NCBI GenBank assembly: GCA_015832175.1
Contig: WJXW01000006.1
Span: 2,592,987 to 2,656,986, forward strand
Direction of reading: 5' to 3'
DNA from: Paraphaeosphaeria minitans
Lineage: Eukaryota; Ascomycota; Dothideomycetes; Pleosporales; Didymosphaeriaceae
Length of the DNA stretch: 64,000 nt
Of this stretch, positions 55,726 through 64,000 are shown piece after piece; positions within the stretch are counted from its first letter, which is position 1, and each line of letters starts with the position of its first letter. The position numbers and the translations under genes are program-made. The notes under the pieces were generated by a model. That model saw only the letters and a program-made list of their open reading frames with translations. It ran no database searches and was not told the origin of the DNA.

Positions 55726-57705
55726 ATGCATAAGCACACCTTTATAAGCGCCTTTTCTAAACGCTTCCGCCTACGCCTACAAATATTAGAAACTGTCTTA
55801 CAGATACTTACATTAAGGTATACTTTCTATGCATAAGTATGCCTAGTTTTAGTACTAACTACTATACCTAGTCTAGCTATTATTATAGACGCCTAGGCAA
55901 AGCACTTTACTACCTATAATACTAGCTACCTAAAGCCCAAGCCTAAGTTCTCTAAAGGCGTCGCAGTCTTTAACATTATATACAAGAATGCTATAAACCT
56001 AGGTCCTAGGCGCATCTCTATAGGCCACATCTTTGTAAAAGAGCAGCTGTCTGCCACGTTAAATAACTAGGCTAGTAATAGCCAGGCAACGTCTTAGTAG
56101 CTTTATAATAAGTGTAGACAGCTAGGCCACTTTTAAGCCAGATGCCCTAGCCAACTCTACTATAAGTGCGGTAACCCTAGCTATCTAGCGTTAGGTTACT
56201 AACTTTAAAACACCTACTATACTTATAGTAACATAGGATATAAGCACAAAGACTATTAGAACGTTTATCCTTACTACCTAATAGAGAGCTATACTACTGC
56301 CAACTACTGCGTAATTAACTGCGTACCTACACCTACTTAAGCTAGTTAAGCTGCAGCCACCTCTACTAAGAGCATAGCCCCTACTAAAGACAAGGCCATA
56401 CTTATAGGTTTTATAGCTACACCTACTAAAGCATTAGGTGTCCCTACTAACACTACTATTACGCCTATAGCTAGCGAAGCTTCTACTAACTTAGAACTAG
56501 TAGAAGATTATAGTCCGCCTCTTAGTTAGTTTAAGGCCCTAGAATTAGACAAGATAGAAGTTAAGCTATATGCTATAACTATAGAGCACTATTTATCATC
56601 TATCCAGCTGCGCCTATTAGTCTTATACGCAAGCGAAAACATAGTAAGCAGCCAGTTTACTAAGGAAGCCATCCTCTAGACCTCTACCTTTAACGCTATT
56701 AGCCTAATTAAGACTTATAAGATATTAGTTAATTCGCCTATAAAATCTAACTAGTGTAATCTTAACTATTTTAGTGCCTACAGCCGCAAAAAGCTAATGT
56801 AGCTTATCTCTAGAGATGGCGCCACAGCCTATCTACTCTACGTATTCTAGGAGATTAAGGCAGATACTAGCCTAAACAAACAGCCCTAAAATCTCCTAGG
56901 GCTTACGCTATTCTCTAATAGCACCTATAGCCTATACACAGCTATAATACACGCGCTTTAAAACGCGCTATAGAGATGCCACTATGTATAGGTTTACTTC
57001 TACACTGCGGCTAGCTCGTGGTTTAAAGATGCTATAAATAAGGTTTCTAAATTAATCTAAATATAGGTAAAAGTTAACACTATAGCTACCTAGTATCTGT
57101 GTTAGGCTATTAATATCCAGCTAGAGATGTAGCTTCCGCTAGACAAGTAACCTAAGTACTCTATTCCAGCACATAAGTAGTTTAACTATTACAAGGAGTA
57201 TTTCACAGTGCATTTCTATTTAGCCATTACAGAGTATAAGGCTATTCCTAACGCTGTGTTTGTGCCTACAAAGGTGCGCCTAGTTAAAATAGGCAGTAAC
57301 CTAGACTAGCGCGCCTACTTTGCGCTTATTATAATAGACAAAAATATAAACCTTTGCGTTAACGCCCTATTTAACATCCAGTTCCTTAGTAATAACGTAA
57401 GTAATAGTATAGTATGGAGAGGGCGCGTAGTGCTGCTAGTAGGTATCGCTAATAGCCTTAAGCACTCTACCTTTATCTAGCGACCCCATAATAGCAGGTC
57501 TAGTTTCTAGTAGGACCCTAAGTTCTCTAAGGACCACGTTGTTAAGGCTAATAACTTTAACAATATTAACTAGCTATAGGCTGCGCTAGATAACTACCTA
57601 GGTATTAAAGTCTACATTCGCGTTAAGTAACCCTACCCAAGAGGAAGAGGCGTCGGTGGTCACAGACGCGCTAAGATTGGCTTAGCGTTAGGGTTAGAGT
57701 TAACG
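55726..57705 (+). pseudogene. Zinc-knuckle protein gene relic upstream of the telomeric helicase
   Basis: An ATG at 55726 opens a frame with TAG/TAA only at Gln/Trp-type positions. The first 130 residues include KPKPKFSKGVAVFNIIYKNA and GHIFVKEQLSATLNN. At about 56110-56280 lies a Cys/His-rich block: CRQLGHFQARCP, then YKCGNPSYLALGY, then a third part in which several Tyr probably replace Cys (HKDYQNVYPYY). After a Ser/Thr/Pro linker comes a long region (LELVEDYSPPLSQFKALELD near 56490) and an RGG-like stretch (RGRGVGGHRRAK near 57640). Zinc knuckles bind single-stranded nucleic acid. The family is not recognised; I saw no nuclease or polymerase motif. It lies on the same strand as the helicase at 57899. 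The 3' end is approximate. Confidence 0.55.
57688..57702 (+). repeat. Short interstitial telomere-like motif
   Basis: TTAGGGTTAGAGTTA, about two and a half telomere units with one change, lies about 200 bp upstream of the intact helicase start. Confidence 0.6.
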
Positions 57706-57898: not shown

Positions 57899-60800
57899 AT
57901 GGAGTTCTGCTGGGACGCTCGAGCTTCCGCGTCAAGCCCAGCTAACAGAGTACTAACATCACCACATCAACAGAACTCTCAGCAGCAACAGCAACTAGCA
58001 GGAGAAAACTTAGCGCAAGCTAATATACAAAAGTATATTCATTTTGTTAAGGAGTACGGCGTGCTTTGCTGCAGCGAGCACAAAGCCGGCATAGAAAATC
58101 TCGATGTACATCTCCGTCAAAAGCATAGTGTACCAGTTAACGAACGGAGGAAATTCATTGAAAGCTGCGCTCTTTTGAGAAGACAAGGGCTGGGCAGCGT
58201 TACGCTACCAGACGCTGGCGGACCGCCAATCCAGGTCCTAGGAGCGCCGTTGGACGGCTTCCAATGCAAGCAGCCAGCATGCAGCTATCTTACGCGAAAC
58301 AAGGGCCAGATACGACTACACTGCAACAGTCATGGGTTAGCGTTCAAGACGGGATCAGATGCGCTCTACCAGAAGGTAAAGATGCAGTCTTTCTTCCCCG
58401 CTTCAGGACGGCAGCGGTACTTTGTAGTTTGCGTCCCCGATGTAGCGGACAGCGGAGCAGACGCTAGGGCGCATAAAGAAGAGGTGGAAGACATTCTGGC
58501 AGAGTACGCGCGAACGCAGGAGGAGAGGAAGCGGCAAGAGCAGGTGATGGATGCAGAAGTCGCAAAGACAGACAAGACAGGCTGGTGGAAGTTTACAGAG
58601 TGGCCAGAGCACTTTGCGAACCGCAACTGCGTGCACCTTGCCCACGCGATCCGGCTGCCGCGCCGGGACGAGCCCAAGCTGCAGAAGGCCGCGCGGGCTG
58701 TGGAGCAGCTGGTGGAGCAGAGCGTCCGAGGGCTGTCCTCGCTACCACGTGAGACCCGACGATGGGTGAAGAGTGCGCAGGCCAACGAGATCCACCAGCA
58801 GCCGATAGCCCGACTGCAGAACCCAGAGAGCCAGGCGCGCTATGCTGGGTACATTGTGATGTTCGTGTGCTATGTCCTACGTATCGTCGCCGCCGAAGAA
58901 GCGGACAAGGAGAGCGAGGACACGGAGAGTAGCGAGGGCAGCAGCACCGACGACAGCAGCGACGGCGACGGCAGCAGCAGCGACTGCAGTGATGAGAGCC
59001 CGCCCGAGGCCCACACAGGTCGCCGAGTCAAAGTTGATCCCATGAAGGACGCGCGGGAGATGTTCCCATGGAAAGAGGACCAAAAGCTGCTGGCCACCAT
59101 GCTCTGGGAGGCCCTGGACAGCAACGACGAAGCCGGCCACATCGTCCTAGTGCGCCGGATGCTTAGTACGTTCATCATGACGACCTACATCCGCAGTCCG
59201 TTTGAGAGCGGGCTCGTTCACTTTGCTGCTGTGCTTGGGTTCGATTCAGAGACACGTCGACTGCGCACCGCGAAGAACTATTCGTATCTAGTGGCTGGGA
59301 TGGTGTACTGCGTTCGGGTGATCAGTGTCGAACACCTACTTCCGCCCGCGCAACGGGAACAGCAGGGCTTGGTGGAACGTGACCACTATCTTGACCTGAG
59401 AAAGCGCTTCCTAGCGGACGGGTCCTTCAGCCCGACGAGCCAGCTGCTTAGTCTGCTGGCCTATGGCAAGTTCATCGGCATGAATACCGGCAACGCGGGC
59501 AACGCCTTCTGGTCAGAGGATAAGAAGATCTTCTACCTCAACGGTAGACCCATCGTTATACACCATTTCCAGCTGATGGCCCAAGAACTGTTGACCGAGC
59601 TGGAGGACCTGCTCTGGGGTGAGCTGCTCTGGGTCCGCAGTCCCGGTCAGCGTTTCCCGATCCGGCTCGACCTGATTCAGGACGATGTCGCGTGCACACG
59701 ACGCGGCATGTCCTTTGTCACGCACGGGAACAACGGCCTGGAGAATGGCTTGCGATGGATGCTCGAACGGATGATGCAGGACGAGCAGGGTCGGAAGCTC
59801 CGCTCCGGAGATGGGACTTGGAACGTTGCACGCGTGAAGCTGTACCTGCGCAGTGTCAAGCGCTTCAAGGAGCTGGAGCTTGCCAATCTCCACATTGACG
59901 AGGGAATGCCAGGTCGGGGCACCGAGATCACGTCGATGCGGTTCCGCAACGGAGCACTGCAGGACCGCAACCTCTTCGTGATGGACGGACAGATCATGAC
60001 GGTGGTCCGTTACTACAAGTCGCAGTCGCAGTTCGACAAGCCCAAGGTCATCCCAAGGTTCCTGCCCTCGCGGCTCTCGCAGGTGCTCGTTGTGTACCTG
60101 GCGTACGTGCAGCCGTTCGAAGAGTACCTGACCGTGGAGGTGCTGGGCGGCAGCTTCACCGACTACCTGTGGGCCAACGAGCAGGGTCCGTGGCACACGG
60201 ATCACCTGACGCGGGTGCTGAAGCGCGAGACGGGCAAGCACCTGGGGGTGGCGCTGAACACGCTCGACTACCGACACACGGCGGTGGGGATTGGGCGGGA
60301 GGTGGTTGGGGATGTGTTTGGGCGGGGTTACCAAGACGAGGTGGGTGAGATTGAAGAGCCCGAGGTCGACGAGGACGGTGAGAGCCCGTTGGAGCTGCAG
60401 AGCGCGCGGACGACCAAGATCGGCCTGGCCAACTACAGCGTGCCCATCGATATTGTGAAGCATCTCAGCATGCGTTCGATCGAGACCTTCCGGCCGCTCA
60501 GTCGGCGCTGGCACGAGTTTCTAGGTGTGGATGGGCACGAGGTACGACCCAGTGCAGCCAGGAAGCGGCGATGGGAAGAAGAAGGAGACGGTCAAGACAA
60601 AGGGAGAGATGATCTCGCCGTGGTCGTGCCGCAGAAGAAAACCAAACCAGGGGGTGTCACTGCGAGTGCGATGTCTAGAGCGATGCAGCAGGCACTTGGC
60701 CAGGCTACTGCATCGTTCAAGTCGGACGAGCAGGAACAGGCCATGTTCGCTATGGTGAACGGTCAGACACCGCTGGTGGTCGTGCTCCCCACAGGTGGAG

Positions 60801-62320
60801 GCAAGAGTCTGCTGTTCATGGTGCCGGCCTGCCTCGACCATGCTGGCGTGACCGTGGTTGTGGTGCCGTTCCGCGCGCTGATCGAGGACCTGGCAACGCG
60901 TATCCGCGCGCGCGGTATCGACTGCGTGGAATGGGTTAACCACGAGACGAACCCGGCCTCCGTCATGCTGGTTGGTGCTGATGTCGCCGGCGGCGCGGGG
61001 TTCCTGAAGTATGCCAGCTCGCTGAAGGATAAGAAGCAGCTGCAGCGGGTGGTGATTGACGAGTGCCATCTCATCATCACCTCCAGCCATTGGCGGCCGA
61101 AGCTGGCGAAGCTGCGGAATCTGCGCGTGCTTGCATGCCCGATCGTACTGCTGACGGCGACGCTACCGCCCGTGCTGGAGGGGGTGTTGGGTAGAAGCAT
61201 GTTGATTCAAGCTGCCACCTACATCCGGGCCAGCACGGTGCGGCCCAACATCCGGTATTACGTGTCGTGGTGTGGGCGAGGTAAGGCCATGGAGGCAGCA
61301 CTGGCCATGTGTCGACGGCGGCAGGAACAGCTGCGGGGTGGCCAGAAAGGCGTCATCTACTGCCACAGCAGGACTGCATGCGAAATGCTGGCAGGGGCGC
61401 TGGGCTGCAAGCACTACCACGCTGGCGAGTTGGATCGAACCGAGATCCTCGCCAGCTGGCTGGACGAAGGCGGGCTCATCGTGGCAACATCAGCGCTCGG
61501 TACTGGGGTTAACTTTCCCAGCATCGTGTTCGTCTTGCACGTAGGCATGCCATGGAGCATGATCGACTACTGCCAGGAGAGTGGGCGTGCGGGGCGTAGC
61601 GGCGAGGTGGCGGACTCGGTCATCATCGTCGAGCCAGGTGAGGTGGAGAGGCGAATCCGGGAGGGTGGAGCGTCGGTGGACGTGTGCGCGATGGGCATGT
61701 TCATCGAGAGCGAAGGCTGCCGGCGCGGGAAGATGAGCGAGTACATGGATGGGCAGCGGGTAGTGTGCAGTGACATGGACTCGGCTGGGTGCGATCGATG
61801 CGGTGAGGGCCGGATCGAGTGGCAGCAGGCCCAGTCGCTCGCGGCGAGTGAGTGGCAAGAGGTGGAGGCAAGCATGGACGAGCTGCGGGCCGGGTGTGCG
61901 ATATGCTGGGTGCTGGGGCGGGCAGGCTGGCAAGAGCACAGAACGATGCTGTGCACGGCGCAGCCCATGATGATGGGGAGGGACATGGACGAGTTCCGGC
62001 GAGGGGTGCGCGACGCTGGGAACTGCCACAGCTGTCGAAGGTGCTGGGTGAGCCAGAAGTGGTGCGCGACAGGGCAGGACGTCGCGAACTCGTGCCAGTG
62101 GCCGAACATTGTGATTCCTGTGGCCAGGGCAGCAACGGGGATTGCGGATGGGCTTGAGATCATTCGGCAGTGCGGGTTCCAGGGCGAGTGCGAGGTTTCG
62201 TGCCAGGCGTACCAGGTATGGCTTGGACAGCGCCATTGTGAACGTATCTGGGGCGAATTTCTTAGTAATGCAATGGTAGTAGCTATAAGAGTTATTATAA
62301 AACTTAAAGAGAAGAATTAG
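57899..62320 (+). CDS. Telomere-linked RecQ-like helicase with zinc fingers and a tyrosine-recombinase-like domain
   Basis: A single 1473-residue ORF without introns or RIP damage. Residues 53-76 and 121-145 are two OrsD-type Cys/His modules (CCSEH, then VHLRQKH; FQCKQPACSY, then RLHCNSH). Residues 333-370 are an acidic Ser-rich linker. Residues about 440-880 hold a recombinase-like segment: R673 (GRGTEI), K707 (YYKS), R792-H793 (LDYRHTA), R837 and Y846 (ARTTKIGLANY). The helicase follows: Walker A PTGGGKS 964-970, DECH 1054-1057, LTATLPP 1085-1091, YCHSR 1154-1158, ATSALGTGVNFP 1196-1207, and QESGRAGRSG 1226-1235. A zinc-binding Cys set (C1274, C1290, C1298, C1301) and more cysteines come after it. 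Helicase motifs are of the RecQ type known from telomere-linked helicases of fungi; the enzyme would unwind DNA in the nucleus. It lies about 1.6 kb from the telomere. The last 20 or so codons are in AT-rich sequence. Whether it is expressed is not shown here. Confidence 0.93.
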   Translation: MEFCWDARASASSPANRVLTSPHQQNSQQQQQLAGENLAQANIQKYIHFVKEYGVLCCSEHKAGIENLDVHLRQKHSVPVNERRKFIESCALLRRQGLGSVTLPDAGGPPIQVLGAPLDGFQCKQPACSYLTRNKGQIRLHCNSHGLAFKTGSDALYQKVKMQSFFPASGRQRYFVVCVPDVADSGADARAHKEEVEDILAEYARTQEERKRQEQVMDAEVAKTDKTGWWKFTEWPEHFANRNCVHLAHAIRLPRRDEPKLQKAARAVEQLVEQSVRGLSSLPRETRRWVKSAQANEIHQQPIARLQNPESQARYAGYIVMFVCYVLRIVAAEEADKESEDTESSEGSSTDDSSDGDGSSSDCSDESPPEAHTGRRVKVDPMKDAREMFPWKEDQKLLATMLWEALDSNDEAGHIVLVRRMLSTFIMTTYIRSPFESGLVHFAAVLGFDSETRRLRTAKNYSYLVAGMVYCVRVISVEHLLPPAQREQQGLVERDHYLDLRKRFLADGSFSPTSQLLSLLAYGKFIGMNTGNAGNAFWSEDKKIFYLNGRPIVIHHFQLMAQELLTELEDLLWGELLWVRSPGQRFPIRLDLIQDDVACTRRGMSFVTHGNNGLENGLRWMLERMMQDEQGRKLRSGDGTWNVARVKLYLRSVKRFKELELANLHIDEGMPGRGTEITSMRFRNGALQDRNLFVMDGQIMTVVRYYKSQSQFDKPKVIPRFLPSRLSQVLVVYLAYVQPFEEYLTVEVLGGSFTDYLWANEQGPWHTDHLTRVLKRETGKHLGVALNTLDYRHTAVGIGREVVGDVFGRGYQDEVGEIEEPEVDEDGESPLELQSARTTKIGLANYSVPIDIVKHLSMRSIETFRPLSRRWHEFLGVDGHEVRPSAARKRRWEEEGDGQDKGRDDLAVVVPQKKTKPGGVTASAMSRAMQQALGQATASFKSDEQEQAMFAMVNGQTPLVVVLPTGGGKSLLFMVPACLDHAGVTVVVVPFRALIEDLATRIRARGIDCVEWVNHETNPASVMLVGADVAGGAGFLKYASSLKDKKQLQRVVIDECHLIITSSHWRPKLAKLRNLRVLACPIVLLTATLPPVLEGVLGRSMLIQAATYIRASTVRPNIRYYVSWCGRGKAMEAALAMCRRRQEQLRGGQKGVIYCHSRTACEMLAGALGCKHYHAGELDRTEILASWLDEGGLIVATSALGTGVNFPSIVFVLHVGMPWSMIDYCQESGRAGRSGEVADSVIIVEPGEVERRIREGGASVDVCAMGMFIESEGCRRGKMSEYMDGQRVVCSDMDSAGCDRCGEGRIEWQQAQSLAASEWQEVEASMDELRAGCAICWVLGRAGWQEHRTMLCTAQPMMMGRDMDEFRRGVRDAGNCHSCRRCWVSQKWCATGQDVANSCQWPNIVIPVARAATGIADGLEIIRQCGFQGECEVSCQAYQVWLGQRHCERIWGEFLSNAMVVAIRVIIKLKEKN
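59915..60436 (+). other. Tyrosine-recombinase-like segment within the helicase
   Basis: Covers R673 to Y846. Candidate catalytic residues are R673, K707, R792 (with H793), R837 in the usual His/Trp place, and Y846. R673 to R792 is 119 residues and R837 to Y846 is 9; in Cre recombinase R173 to R292 is 119 and W315 to Y324 is 9. An acidic insert (DEVGEIEEPEVDEDGESP) lies between the second Arg box and R837. The first His of the HxxR box is a Leu. This assignment is mine from motif layout, not from a database hit. Confidence 0.65.
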
Positions 62321-62975
62321 GCCTAGAATATAGTACTTTACTTCTATTTTTTAAAAAATCTCACTTTGTACATATTATAGTAGAGTTAGCCTATCTATTA
62401 TAGATTTTATTTTACTTTACTATATATTAGTATAATAGGATGTAAGTTTTAGAAATTATAGAAAAAATAGAAACTAGAGTCTTCTAGAAGAGTTTAGGAA
62501 TTGTATAAAATAAGTAAATTTCTAAAAACCTAAGTACTAGTATTGATACTATCTTATAACTTATTAGAATTTAATAAAATTATAATTAAACTATATTTCT
62601 ACTTTTTTATAAACTTTACCACTAGTTATTAAATAGTAGTATACTTTTTTATATACTTATAATAATTTTTACTTATTTAGTAATCATAAGTTTTACTTTA
62701 AATAGTTTATACTAATAGTATTATATAACTACTAGAGTGAAACTAAATTTAATTTTATATTAATAATTTATATTTCTATTAAAAAGAGAATATAAAAGAA
62801 ATTATTAAAGTAGTAGTATTTATAAGTAGAAGTAGGACTTATAAATAATAAAACTAAATTACTAAACTATGTAGTAGATAATAAATAATTTCTAGTTATT
62901 ATAAAATTAAGAAAAAAAAACTAAAGGGTTATTTTTTATTAAAGGGAAAATATATATTTCTAAAGTTATAGAAAA
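62321..62975. other. AT-rich subtelomeric spacer
   Basis: Extremely AT-rich and without a readable gene. It begins abruptly near 62250, inside the last codons of the helicase gene. Probably heavily RIP-mutated former repeat. Confidence 0.6.
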
Positions 62976-63600
62976 TATAAAGTAATATAACTTTTTAAAA
63001 AGTAATATAAGGTAAAGTTATTAACTATTCTATACAGGTATATAAGGTCGTGTTAAGTTATATAAAAGGATATAAATTATTATAAAGGGACATAAAGCTA
63101 TATAAAGTAATATGTAGTAAAGTTATTAAATATTTTATAAAGTTATATAAGGTTGTATTAAGTTATATAAAGGGATATAAATTATTATAAAGTAATATAA
63201 AGGTATATAAAGTAATATAAAGTAAAGTTATATAAGGTTGTATTAAGTTATATAAAGTGATATAAATTACTATAAAGCTATATAAAGTGATATATGGTAA
63301 AGTTATTAGATATTTAATAAAGTTATATAAAGTGATATAAATTGTAATAAAGTAATATAAAGCTATATAATACTATATAACTTTCTATAAAATAGTATAA
63401 GGTACAGTTATTAAATATTTTATAAAGGTTTATAAAGTAGTGTTAAGTTGTATAAAGTGATATAAAGTAACATAACTTTCTATAAAGGGATGTAAGGTGA
63501 AGTTATTAAATGTTATATAAAGTGGTATAAAGCTATATAAAGTAAAATAAAGTTATGTAGAGTAATATAGGATGGACTTATTAAATGTTGTTTAAAGTTA
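62976..63600. repeat. Degenerate TATAAAG subtelomeric array
   Basis: Dozens of imperfect copies of a TATAAAG(T/C)(A/G)ATATAA-like element. Longer phrases recur, such as GTAAAGTTATTAAATATT (63117, 63298 in variant form, and 63400). No gene is present. Confidence 0.75.
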
Positions 63601-63771
63601 TTAGTTATACTATAAAACAAACTTAGTAAGGAGAGAAGAATAAGCTTCTTATTATAAAACTTTATATAGTAGAGAAAAGTTAGGACTTTTTTAGAAAAGA
63701 GATATAATATTATAACTAGATAAGGAGTATACTAATATAAGTTAAAGGGAGTTAAAGTAGGGAAAAATCTT
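63601..63771. other. AT-rich spacer near the telomere
   Basis: Nothing recognised; composition becomes more G-rich on the plus strand toward the right. Confidence 0.5.
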
Positions 63772-63845
63772 GAGGTAGAATAGGAAACCCGTTTATAAGT
63801 GTATAGGAGAGGTAGGATAGGAAACCCGTTCGTGAGTGCAAGGGA
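63772..63845 (+). repeat. Two 37-bp repeats next to the telomere
   Basis: 63772-63808 and 63809-63845 are tandem copies (GAGGTAGRATAGGAAACCCG and on). A third, diverging start follows at 63846. Confidence 0.9.
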
Positions 63846-63892
63846 GAGGTGGGGTGGGTGGGCCCGTCGGGATGGGAAGAACCGCTGGTGCG

Positions 63893-64000
63893 TAGGGTTA
63901 GGGTTAGGGTTAGGGTTAGGGTTAGGGTTAGGGTTAGGGTTAGGGTTAGGGTTAGGGTTAGGGTTAGGGTTAGGGTTAGGGTTAGGGTTAGGGTTAGGGT
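63893..64000 (+). repeat. Telomere, TTAGGG array
   Basis: 108 bases of perfect TTAGGG-type repeats in the G-strand orientation expected at a right chromosome end, reaching the end of the sequence. Confidence 0.99.

Follow-up and report, generated by a model that had tools for sequence, protein, structure and literature searches.

The right end of contig C6 in the genome of Paraphaeosphaeria minitans (47.45 Mb in 30 contigs, with TTAGGG telomeres) carries a long helicase gene close to the telomere, and this locus raises the question of how such a gene comes to lie at chromosome ends and whether the protein that it encodes might itself take part in its spread. The whole stretch of DNA analysed here, hereafter the window, comprises the last 64,000 nucleotides of this contig (positions 2592987-2656986); unless a contig is named, all coordinates below refer to it. 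The gene and the parts of its product are the following.

57899..62320, forward strand: gene for a 1,473-residue protein, stop codon counted in; the reading frame 57899-62317 is open throughout in one frame
58040..58333, forward strand: OrsD finger domain, residues 48-145 (PF12013, E 3.6e-9)
59396..60532, forward strand: region predicted by structural modelling to have a tyrosine-recombinase fold, residues 500-878 (a larger model covers residues 380-890)
60329..60406, forward strand: acidic loop, residues 811-836, modelled with low confidence
60710..61846, forward strand: RecQ-type helicase, residues 938-1316, with intact motifs TGGGKS (965), DECH (1054) and QESGRAGR (1226)

Pfam matches of the 1,473-residue protein above the cut-off are OrsD (48-145), DEAD (944-1092) and Helicase_C (1146-1235), none of them falling within residues 146-940, and no reverse transcriptase domain was detected in the ORF by Pfam. 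A Zf-Nsp1alpha match at residues 463-488 (E 0.0059) lies below its cut-off and was dismissed as probably spurious; it recurs in 6 of 20 relatives, with a best E of 2.4e-4. The public P. minitans entry PMIN01_12628 ("hypothetical protein") is 100% identical to the window's protein across 1,415 residues. This 2,767-residue entry (P0176, at the right end of contig C16) contains the protein twice and probably spans two tandem genes, that is, an annotation chimera.

On both sides of the gene lie the sequences with which it is found at other ends.

57632..57640, forward strand: fixed 5' border, CCTAC followed by CCAAGAGG; CTA(T/C) stands before the leader in 73 of 73 cases
57630..57694, forward strand: 5' terminus, foldable as single-stranded DNA with ACCCTA/TAGGGT pairing around two hairpins (-12.1 kcal/mol, z -2.36)
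62321..63890, forward strand: telomere-associated sequence, 5.9% C, holding most of the acceptor sites whose empty form is known
63892..64000, forward strand: TTAGGG telomere repeats, read in the sequence up to the contig end

Together with a leader of 267 bp, the gene, the telomere-associated sequence and the telomere form a terminal cassette of about 6.3 kb. Leaders were searched for with the 25-mer starting at 57637, allowing up to 3 mismatches, which retrieved 73 places (46 of them exact), the reversed pattern retrieving none; the flanks of all 73 were fetched. The letters CTA(T/C), which lie outside the searched 25-mer, immediately precede it in all 73, and C stands before them in 71. Beyond this border the flanks vary, with 54 distinct sequences among the 73 when near-identical ones are counted apart. 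An additional leader, beyond the 73, lies on C12. All 73 are located within 124 kb of a contig end, and 70 of them face the nearer one. The three facing away (L088, L102 and L111) comprise one on C3, at about 124 kb, and two on C18, at about 22-29 kb; the left contig end of C18 carries no telomere repeat. In none of the 73 joints are flank and leader separated by a TTAGGG tract. The fold of the 5' terminus was equalled by 3 of 200 shuffles.

The copies are very similar to one another. All 32 candidates scored in the protein search (of 188) lie at most 20 kb from a contig end with an identity of 100% as rounded, and the 8 of 113 candidates scored in a DNA search with the whole element (about 6.26 kb) likewise have a rounded identity of 100%; because this last search scored only those 8, our copy counts rest on short patterns. 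A base-by-base comparison of 29 loci gives 0 or 1 mismatches in the gene, and several of these loci depart from the window somewhere in the downstream sequence. Some copies are arrayed with a period of 4,987. The terminal sequence adjoins 33 contig ends, 32 exactly and one (C25) with a missing base, and at least 15 contig ends are telomeric, those 15 being all among the 33. In the 31 terminal copies that are readable (C27 and C30 being left out of the 33), the outermost copy invariably starts at the fixed border, no terminal copy with another start having been found among these 31 ends.

The history of one end can be read on C14, where an intact copy is followed by one reduced to 737 bp and then by a full outer copy. 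The outer copy is joined in the gene of the 737-bp copy, and the latter in turn abuts a third copy at its shortened 3' side; these strata are those of one end repeatedly lost and re-capped. The one interior 5' end that was traced downstream, also on C14, is followed by just about 220 bp of element. Over 61 bp, 44 leaders are unchanged and 28 are changed (88 changes, of which 46 C-to-T and 28 G-to-A; L107 was left out). The C-to-T and G-to-A changes of the older leaders are the mark of RIP, and the unchanged leaders would either have spread since the last RIP cycle or have been protected as outer copies.

What do the copies join to? For 30 flanks the answer is direct: they fall within older element copies, so that the site before joining is known. 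The acceptors are listed below, a coordinate denoting the last base before the joint.

62528: CCTA, in the telomere-associated sequence
62619..62620, forward strand: CC (joint 62618), with 10 tandem joints and both the T and the C border variants
63277 and 63609: CT, in the telomere-associated sequence
63787, 63824, 63825 and 63881: CC, with 63824 and 63825 being neighbouring joints in one CCC
62846: acceptor without C in common with the border
58368: CC, within the gene
near 60966: acceptor in a RIP-mutated copy of the gene

Nine distinct direct acceptors fall in the telomere-associated sequence; eight have C and six have CC, where 5.9% and 0.70% would be expected in this sequence (P about 1e-9 and 1e-11, respectively). 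The ten joints at 62618, with both border variants, point to repeated joining or to conversion. The stretch containing this commonest acceptor is present in 63 copies, with the native continuation in 53 and a tandem joint in 10, and foreign DNA follows it in none of the 63. Insertion of a 4,987-bp circle at foreign sites was rejected as a general route because of this lack of foreign continuation (0/63), and no fixed 3' end of the element was found in this stretch, the one searched.

The window's own copy provides a further empty site. The repeat just upstream of it (57601-57631) belongs to a dispersed family that is uninterrupted at 14 other places and reads GCGTTAAG(T/C)AAC(C/T)CTA-GAAC in all 14 (the hyphen marks the joint): AACCCTA-GAAC at 10 and AACTCTA-GAAC at 4, the occupied form being AACCCTA-CCCAAG. 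Overall, acceptor and border have 0-5 bases in common, mostly C, CC or CC(C)TA at the known empty sites. From the acceptor sites and the window's empty-site repeats it follows that the targets are mostly telomere-like C-strand motifs, and the donor end is fixed. Well-studied tyrosine recombinases use a crossover of 6-8 bp, which is longer than the homology at these acceptors. Two leaders have unusual surroundings: the flank of L079 (C20:6317-6477) is inverted telomere-associated sequence, 78% identical, reflecting a past inversion or a head-to-head joint, and L073 (C16:1454208-1454368) has a joint with an additional CCTAC unit (GGAAACCTACCCTACCC), as though a new copy had joined inside an earlier 5' border.

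The region between the finger and the helicase may bear on how these joints arise. A preliminary description of the locus, made from the letters alone, had proposed a tyrosine recombinase there, on the basis of the following residues.

59915..59917, forward strand: R673, first Arg (GRGTEI); Arg in all 171 alignment rows that have a residue there, with a gap in 4 of the 175
60017..60019, forward strand: K707, beta-hairpin Lys; Lys in 172 of the 174 rows with a residue
60272..60277, forward strand: R792-H793, second Arg and the next His; each in 175 of 175 homologues
60407..60409, forward strand: R837, at the His/Trp place; Arg in 174 and His in 1 of 175 homologues
60434..60436, forward strand: Y846, candidate nucleophile; Tyr in 175 of 175 homologues

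In the ORF translation these residues are in frame exactly where they had been placed, and the two spacings said to equal those of Cre do so: R173-R292 is 119 and W315-Y324 is 9 in the fetched Cre sequence, as for R673-R792 and R837-Y846 here. Among the homologues the first distance ranges from 118 to 120, and the second is 9 in all 175. These conservation counts refer to 175 homologues, partial proteins included, which are all the matches listed of the first two homologue searches; a third search yielded 8 extra proteins that were left out of the counts. The searches gave the best 120 of 197, 183 and 284 matches, and two of them scored just about 8,000 candidates, those richest in common words. 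The organisms named among the homologue matches listed are, we presume, mostly Dothideomycetes. The first Arg, the Lys, the second Arg and the Tyr are thus near-invariant, and the free variation that would have told against the proposal was not encountered. Taken alone, this invariance is weak evidence, because conservation of at least 95% is reached by 103 columns of residues 380-900. The residues also stand in a Cre-like order (RGTEI here and RIAEI in Cre, a beta-strand end near the Lys, a helix after it). The residue set exceeds what chance would give: a strict version (RxxE, K, RH, [RHW]x8Y) was recovered in 0 of 20,000 shuffles that kept the conserved columns fixed and shuffled their residues, and a looser version, present 6 times in the real data, turned up in 109 of 3,000 shuffles, with six or more occurrences in 9 of the 3,000, both patterns having been picked post hoc with the case already known.

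Other positions depart from the canonical pattern. Residue 789, at the place of the HxxR His, is Leu here (Leu in 109, His in 51 and other residues in 15 of the 175 homologues), and H793 directly follows the second Arg instead of standing three residues before it, which the preliminary description had left unsaid. The pattern [HW]x8Y is present in 11 of 11 reference phage and plasmid recombinases; the homologues here have Arg (174) or His (1) at its first position. Because the HxxR His is wanting (L789; His in 51/175), we describe the domain as a divergent member of the fold and not as a canonical recombinase. In three Aureobasidium proteins the acidic loop is missing (P0124, P0125 and P0126) and the Arg-Tyr distance is 33 (32 in Cre, 31 in lambda Int); this resembled strong support, but these gene models probably contain a false intron and were not used.

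In both predicted models (residues 500-878 and 380-890), tyrosine recombinases and type IB topoisomerases match ahead of other folds, TelK and ResT being among the structural matches as well. Foldseek against the PDB never reached an E of 1e-3 or lower, the recombinase rows having TM-scores of 0.16-0.41 and an rmsd of 14-27, and the segment with R837 and Y846 has a pLDDT below 50 in both models. By sequence, no tyrosine recombinase family was found among the Pfam, PHROG or NCBIfam matches of the protein or the domain, among the Pfam families of 20 relatives (best 25 of 45 and best 25 of 26), or with tblastn in phages and PDB sequence profiles; in three sequence-search tables (best 60 of 78, 199 and 171) the matches listed are helicases, which leaves room for weaker recombinase matches further down. 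Alignment by hhalign to an 11-sequence recombinase profile also gave no match (Probab <0.2), which is weak evidence because that profile is small. Two hallmarks of the tyrosine recombinase / type IB topoisomerase superfamily are present, the catalytic-domain fold (in the models) and the conservation of both Arg and of the beta Lys between them, and the predicted structures support placing the domain within it at the level of fold. Of the homology proposed at the outset, then, the fold matches and the near-invariant Arg, Lys, Arg and Tyr stand and the canonical active site does not; in the models, recombinase-type folds come top and no confident different fold appeared, while the proposed clustering of R837 and Y846 with the other residues is so far unsupported, their segment being modelled with low confidence.

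The explanation that in our opinion best accounts for both bodies of evidence, and to which we give an even chance of being right, is that the protein is a three-part enzyme made of an OrsD finger, a tyrosine-recombinase-fold domain and a RecQ helicase, and that the gene, leader, telomere-associated sequence and telomere constitute a mobile terminal cassette. The recombinase domain would recognise the 5' end of the element and exchange strands there (CC^TA), its partner being CC or CC(C)TA at a damaged or eroded chromosome end. RecQ helicases are a class acting on branched DNA, and the helicase might drive branch migration or copying as far as the donor's telomere, the recipient end gaining a fresh cassette and losing everything beyond the joint. 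Pairing at CC cannot alone fix the donor side, because the gene alone contains about 229 CC; something recognises the donor end, since random short-homology repair would start at any CC instead of keeping to the border. Loose targets combined with one fixed donor end agree with a recombinase that acts at telomere-like CC(CTA). The fixed 5' border thereby lends independent backing to the suggestion that the domain could explain the spread of the gene, although we infer both the strand-exchange activity of the domain and its role in joining. The main doubts concern the non-canonical His positions, the low confidence of the segment with the Tyr and the shortness of the match to the targets, and the failure to find a second end or a circle counts against this explanation. 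The fuller claim, of a self-spreading element whose fusion protein cuts it at the 5' end and transfers the distal cassette with its telomere onto any chromosome end showing CC or CC(C)TA, is tentative and falls somewhat short of an even chance.

Copying by the host is the alternative that fares best, and we judge it unlikely but serious: an eroded end would initiate break-induced replication through short homology to the 5' end of the element and copy on to the telomere, and the fold would be that of an ex-enzyme binding DNA. The loss of terminal acceptor sequence, the head-to-tail arrays and the identical copies are all predicted by such replication, yet the donor start is constant in 73/73 leaders and 31/31 readable terminal copies in spite of the frequent CC in the gene. 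Likewise, a dead site would suit the Leu of HxxR and an Arg where His or Trp is usual, whereas it would not suit the near-invariance of Arg, Lys, Arg and Tyr. The ten joints at 62618 may represent fewer events, and unequal exchange can enlarge arrays. Host repair combined with a site-specific nick is a possible variant. An active enzyme of this fold might also serve telomere processing, relaxing or resolving ends in the manner of type IB topoisomerases or telomere resolvases, with mobility as a by-product; type IB topoisomerases, TelK and ResT among the structural matches and a 5' terminus that can form a branched hairpin containing the telomere-like CCCTA/TAGGG agree with this, which we nevertheless hold to be improbable. 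A domain with no relation to tyrosine recombinases, its residue set being coincidental, would agree with the absent sequence and profile matches, the weak Foldseek scores and the 109/3,000 shuffles with the loose set, but is very improbable given that in both models a single superfamily supplies the best structural matches and that the residues, from RxxE through the beta-strand Lys and the second Arg to the Tyr, follow a Cre-like order whose strict form no shuffle reproduced.

Should the mobile terminal cassette be real, it would explain the near-identical terminal sequences at most chromosome ends and link mobile-element enzymes to chromosome-end repair, its protein being a DNA enzyme that might provide chromosomes with new ends, and possibly a recombinase needing very short targets. 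With the recombinase fold and the fixed border, a vaguely defined family of subtelomeric genes becomes a mobile system that can be put to the test.

A RecQ gene beside the telomere at many ends is what defines a telomere-linked helicase, a gene family long known from fungi, and it is what we find here, as in the TLH genes of Magnaporthe, Ustilago, Fusarium and fission yeast. Compared with these, through parts of their published descriptions, the present element adds a recombinase-fold domain and a 5' border joined at CC(CTA). If our reading held for TLH genes generally, their role and spread would be explained. The excerpts available of papers on telomere-linked RecQ genes in M. graminicola (PMC4522978), TLHs together with FoTeRs (PMC12857005), TLH function, called currently unclear (PMC11893274), Ustilago UTAS with OrsD (PMC10532341) and the RecQ telomere-linked helicase of Leptosphaeria (PMC3411245), like a figure legend of PMC8381367 and the excerpt of PMC3627910, do not mention a recombinase domain in these helicases. 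Open PMC full text, which holds few subscription journals and no bioRxiv, returned 0 papers for TLH and tyrosine recombinase jointly, and among the papers listed by searches of this text no title or abstract start joins the two.

Starship captains (DUF3435) represent tyrosine-recombinase mobile elements of fungi; here, by contrast, the cassette is short and telomere-bound, and PF11917 (DUF3435) is not among the protein's 8 Pfam families at E up to 10. Elsewhere in the genome (C15, C8 and C20) there are DUF3435 matches of the Starship captain type, several with stops. Yeast Y' elements likewise have a subtelomeric helicase gene in tandem terminal arrays, but Y' copies have telomere tracts in between, in contrast to the 73 joints here. 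Academ transposons also carry a RecQ, with a different transposase class. Cryptons resemble the present element in being eukaryotic DNA elements that encode a tyrosine recombinase and lack terminal inverted repeats, but insert within chromosomes, whereas here there is one fixed end, a terminal position and an added RecQ helicase and OrsD finger; in place of two defined ends inside a chromosome, we find terminal copies that reach the telomere and 0/63 foreign 3' flanks. The part of PMC3627910 available to us names the RecQ helicase of Academ and the short terminal direct repeats of Cryptons.

The combination seen here points to a novel type of mobile DNA at chromosome ends. Terminal arrays running head to tail, attachment by a single fixed end and variable distal erosion, all of them features of HeT-A, are shared with HeT-A/TART, MoTeR and FoTeR. 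Unlike in these telomeric retrotransposons, the ORF has no reverse transcriptase, the attached side lies upstream of the gene and the TTAGGG cap is kept. The cassette, if mobile as proposed, would be a DNA-based counterpart to the telomeric retrotransposons of Drosophila.
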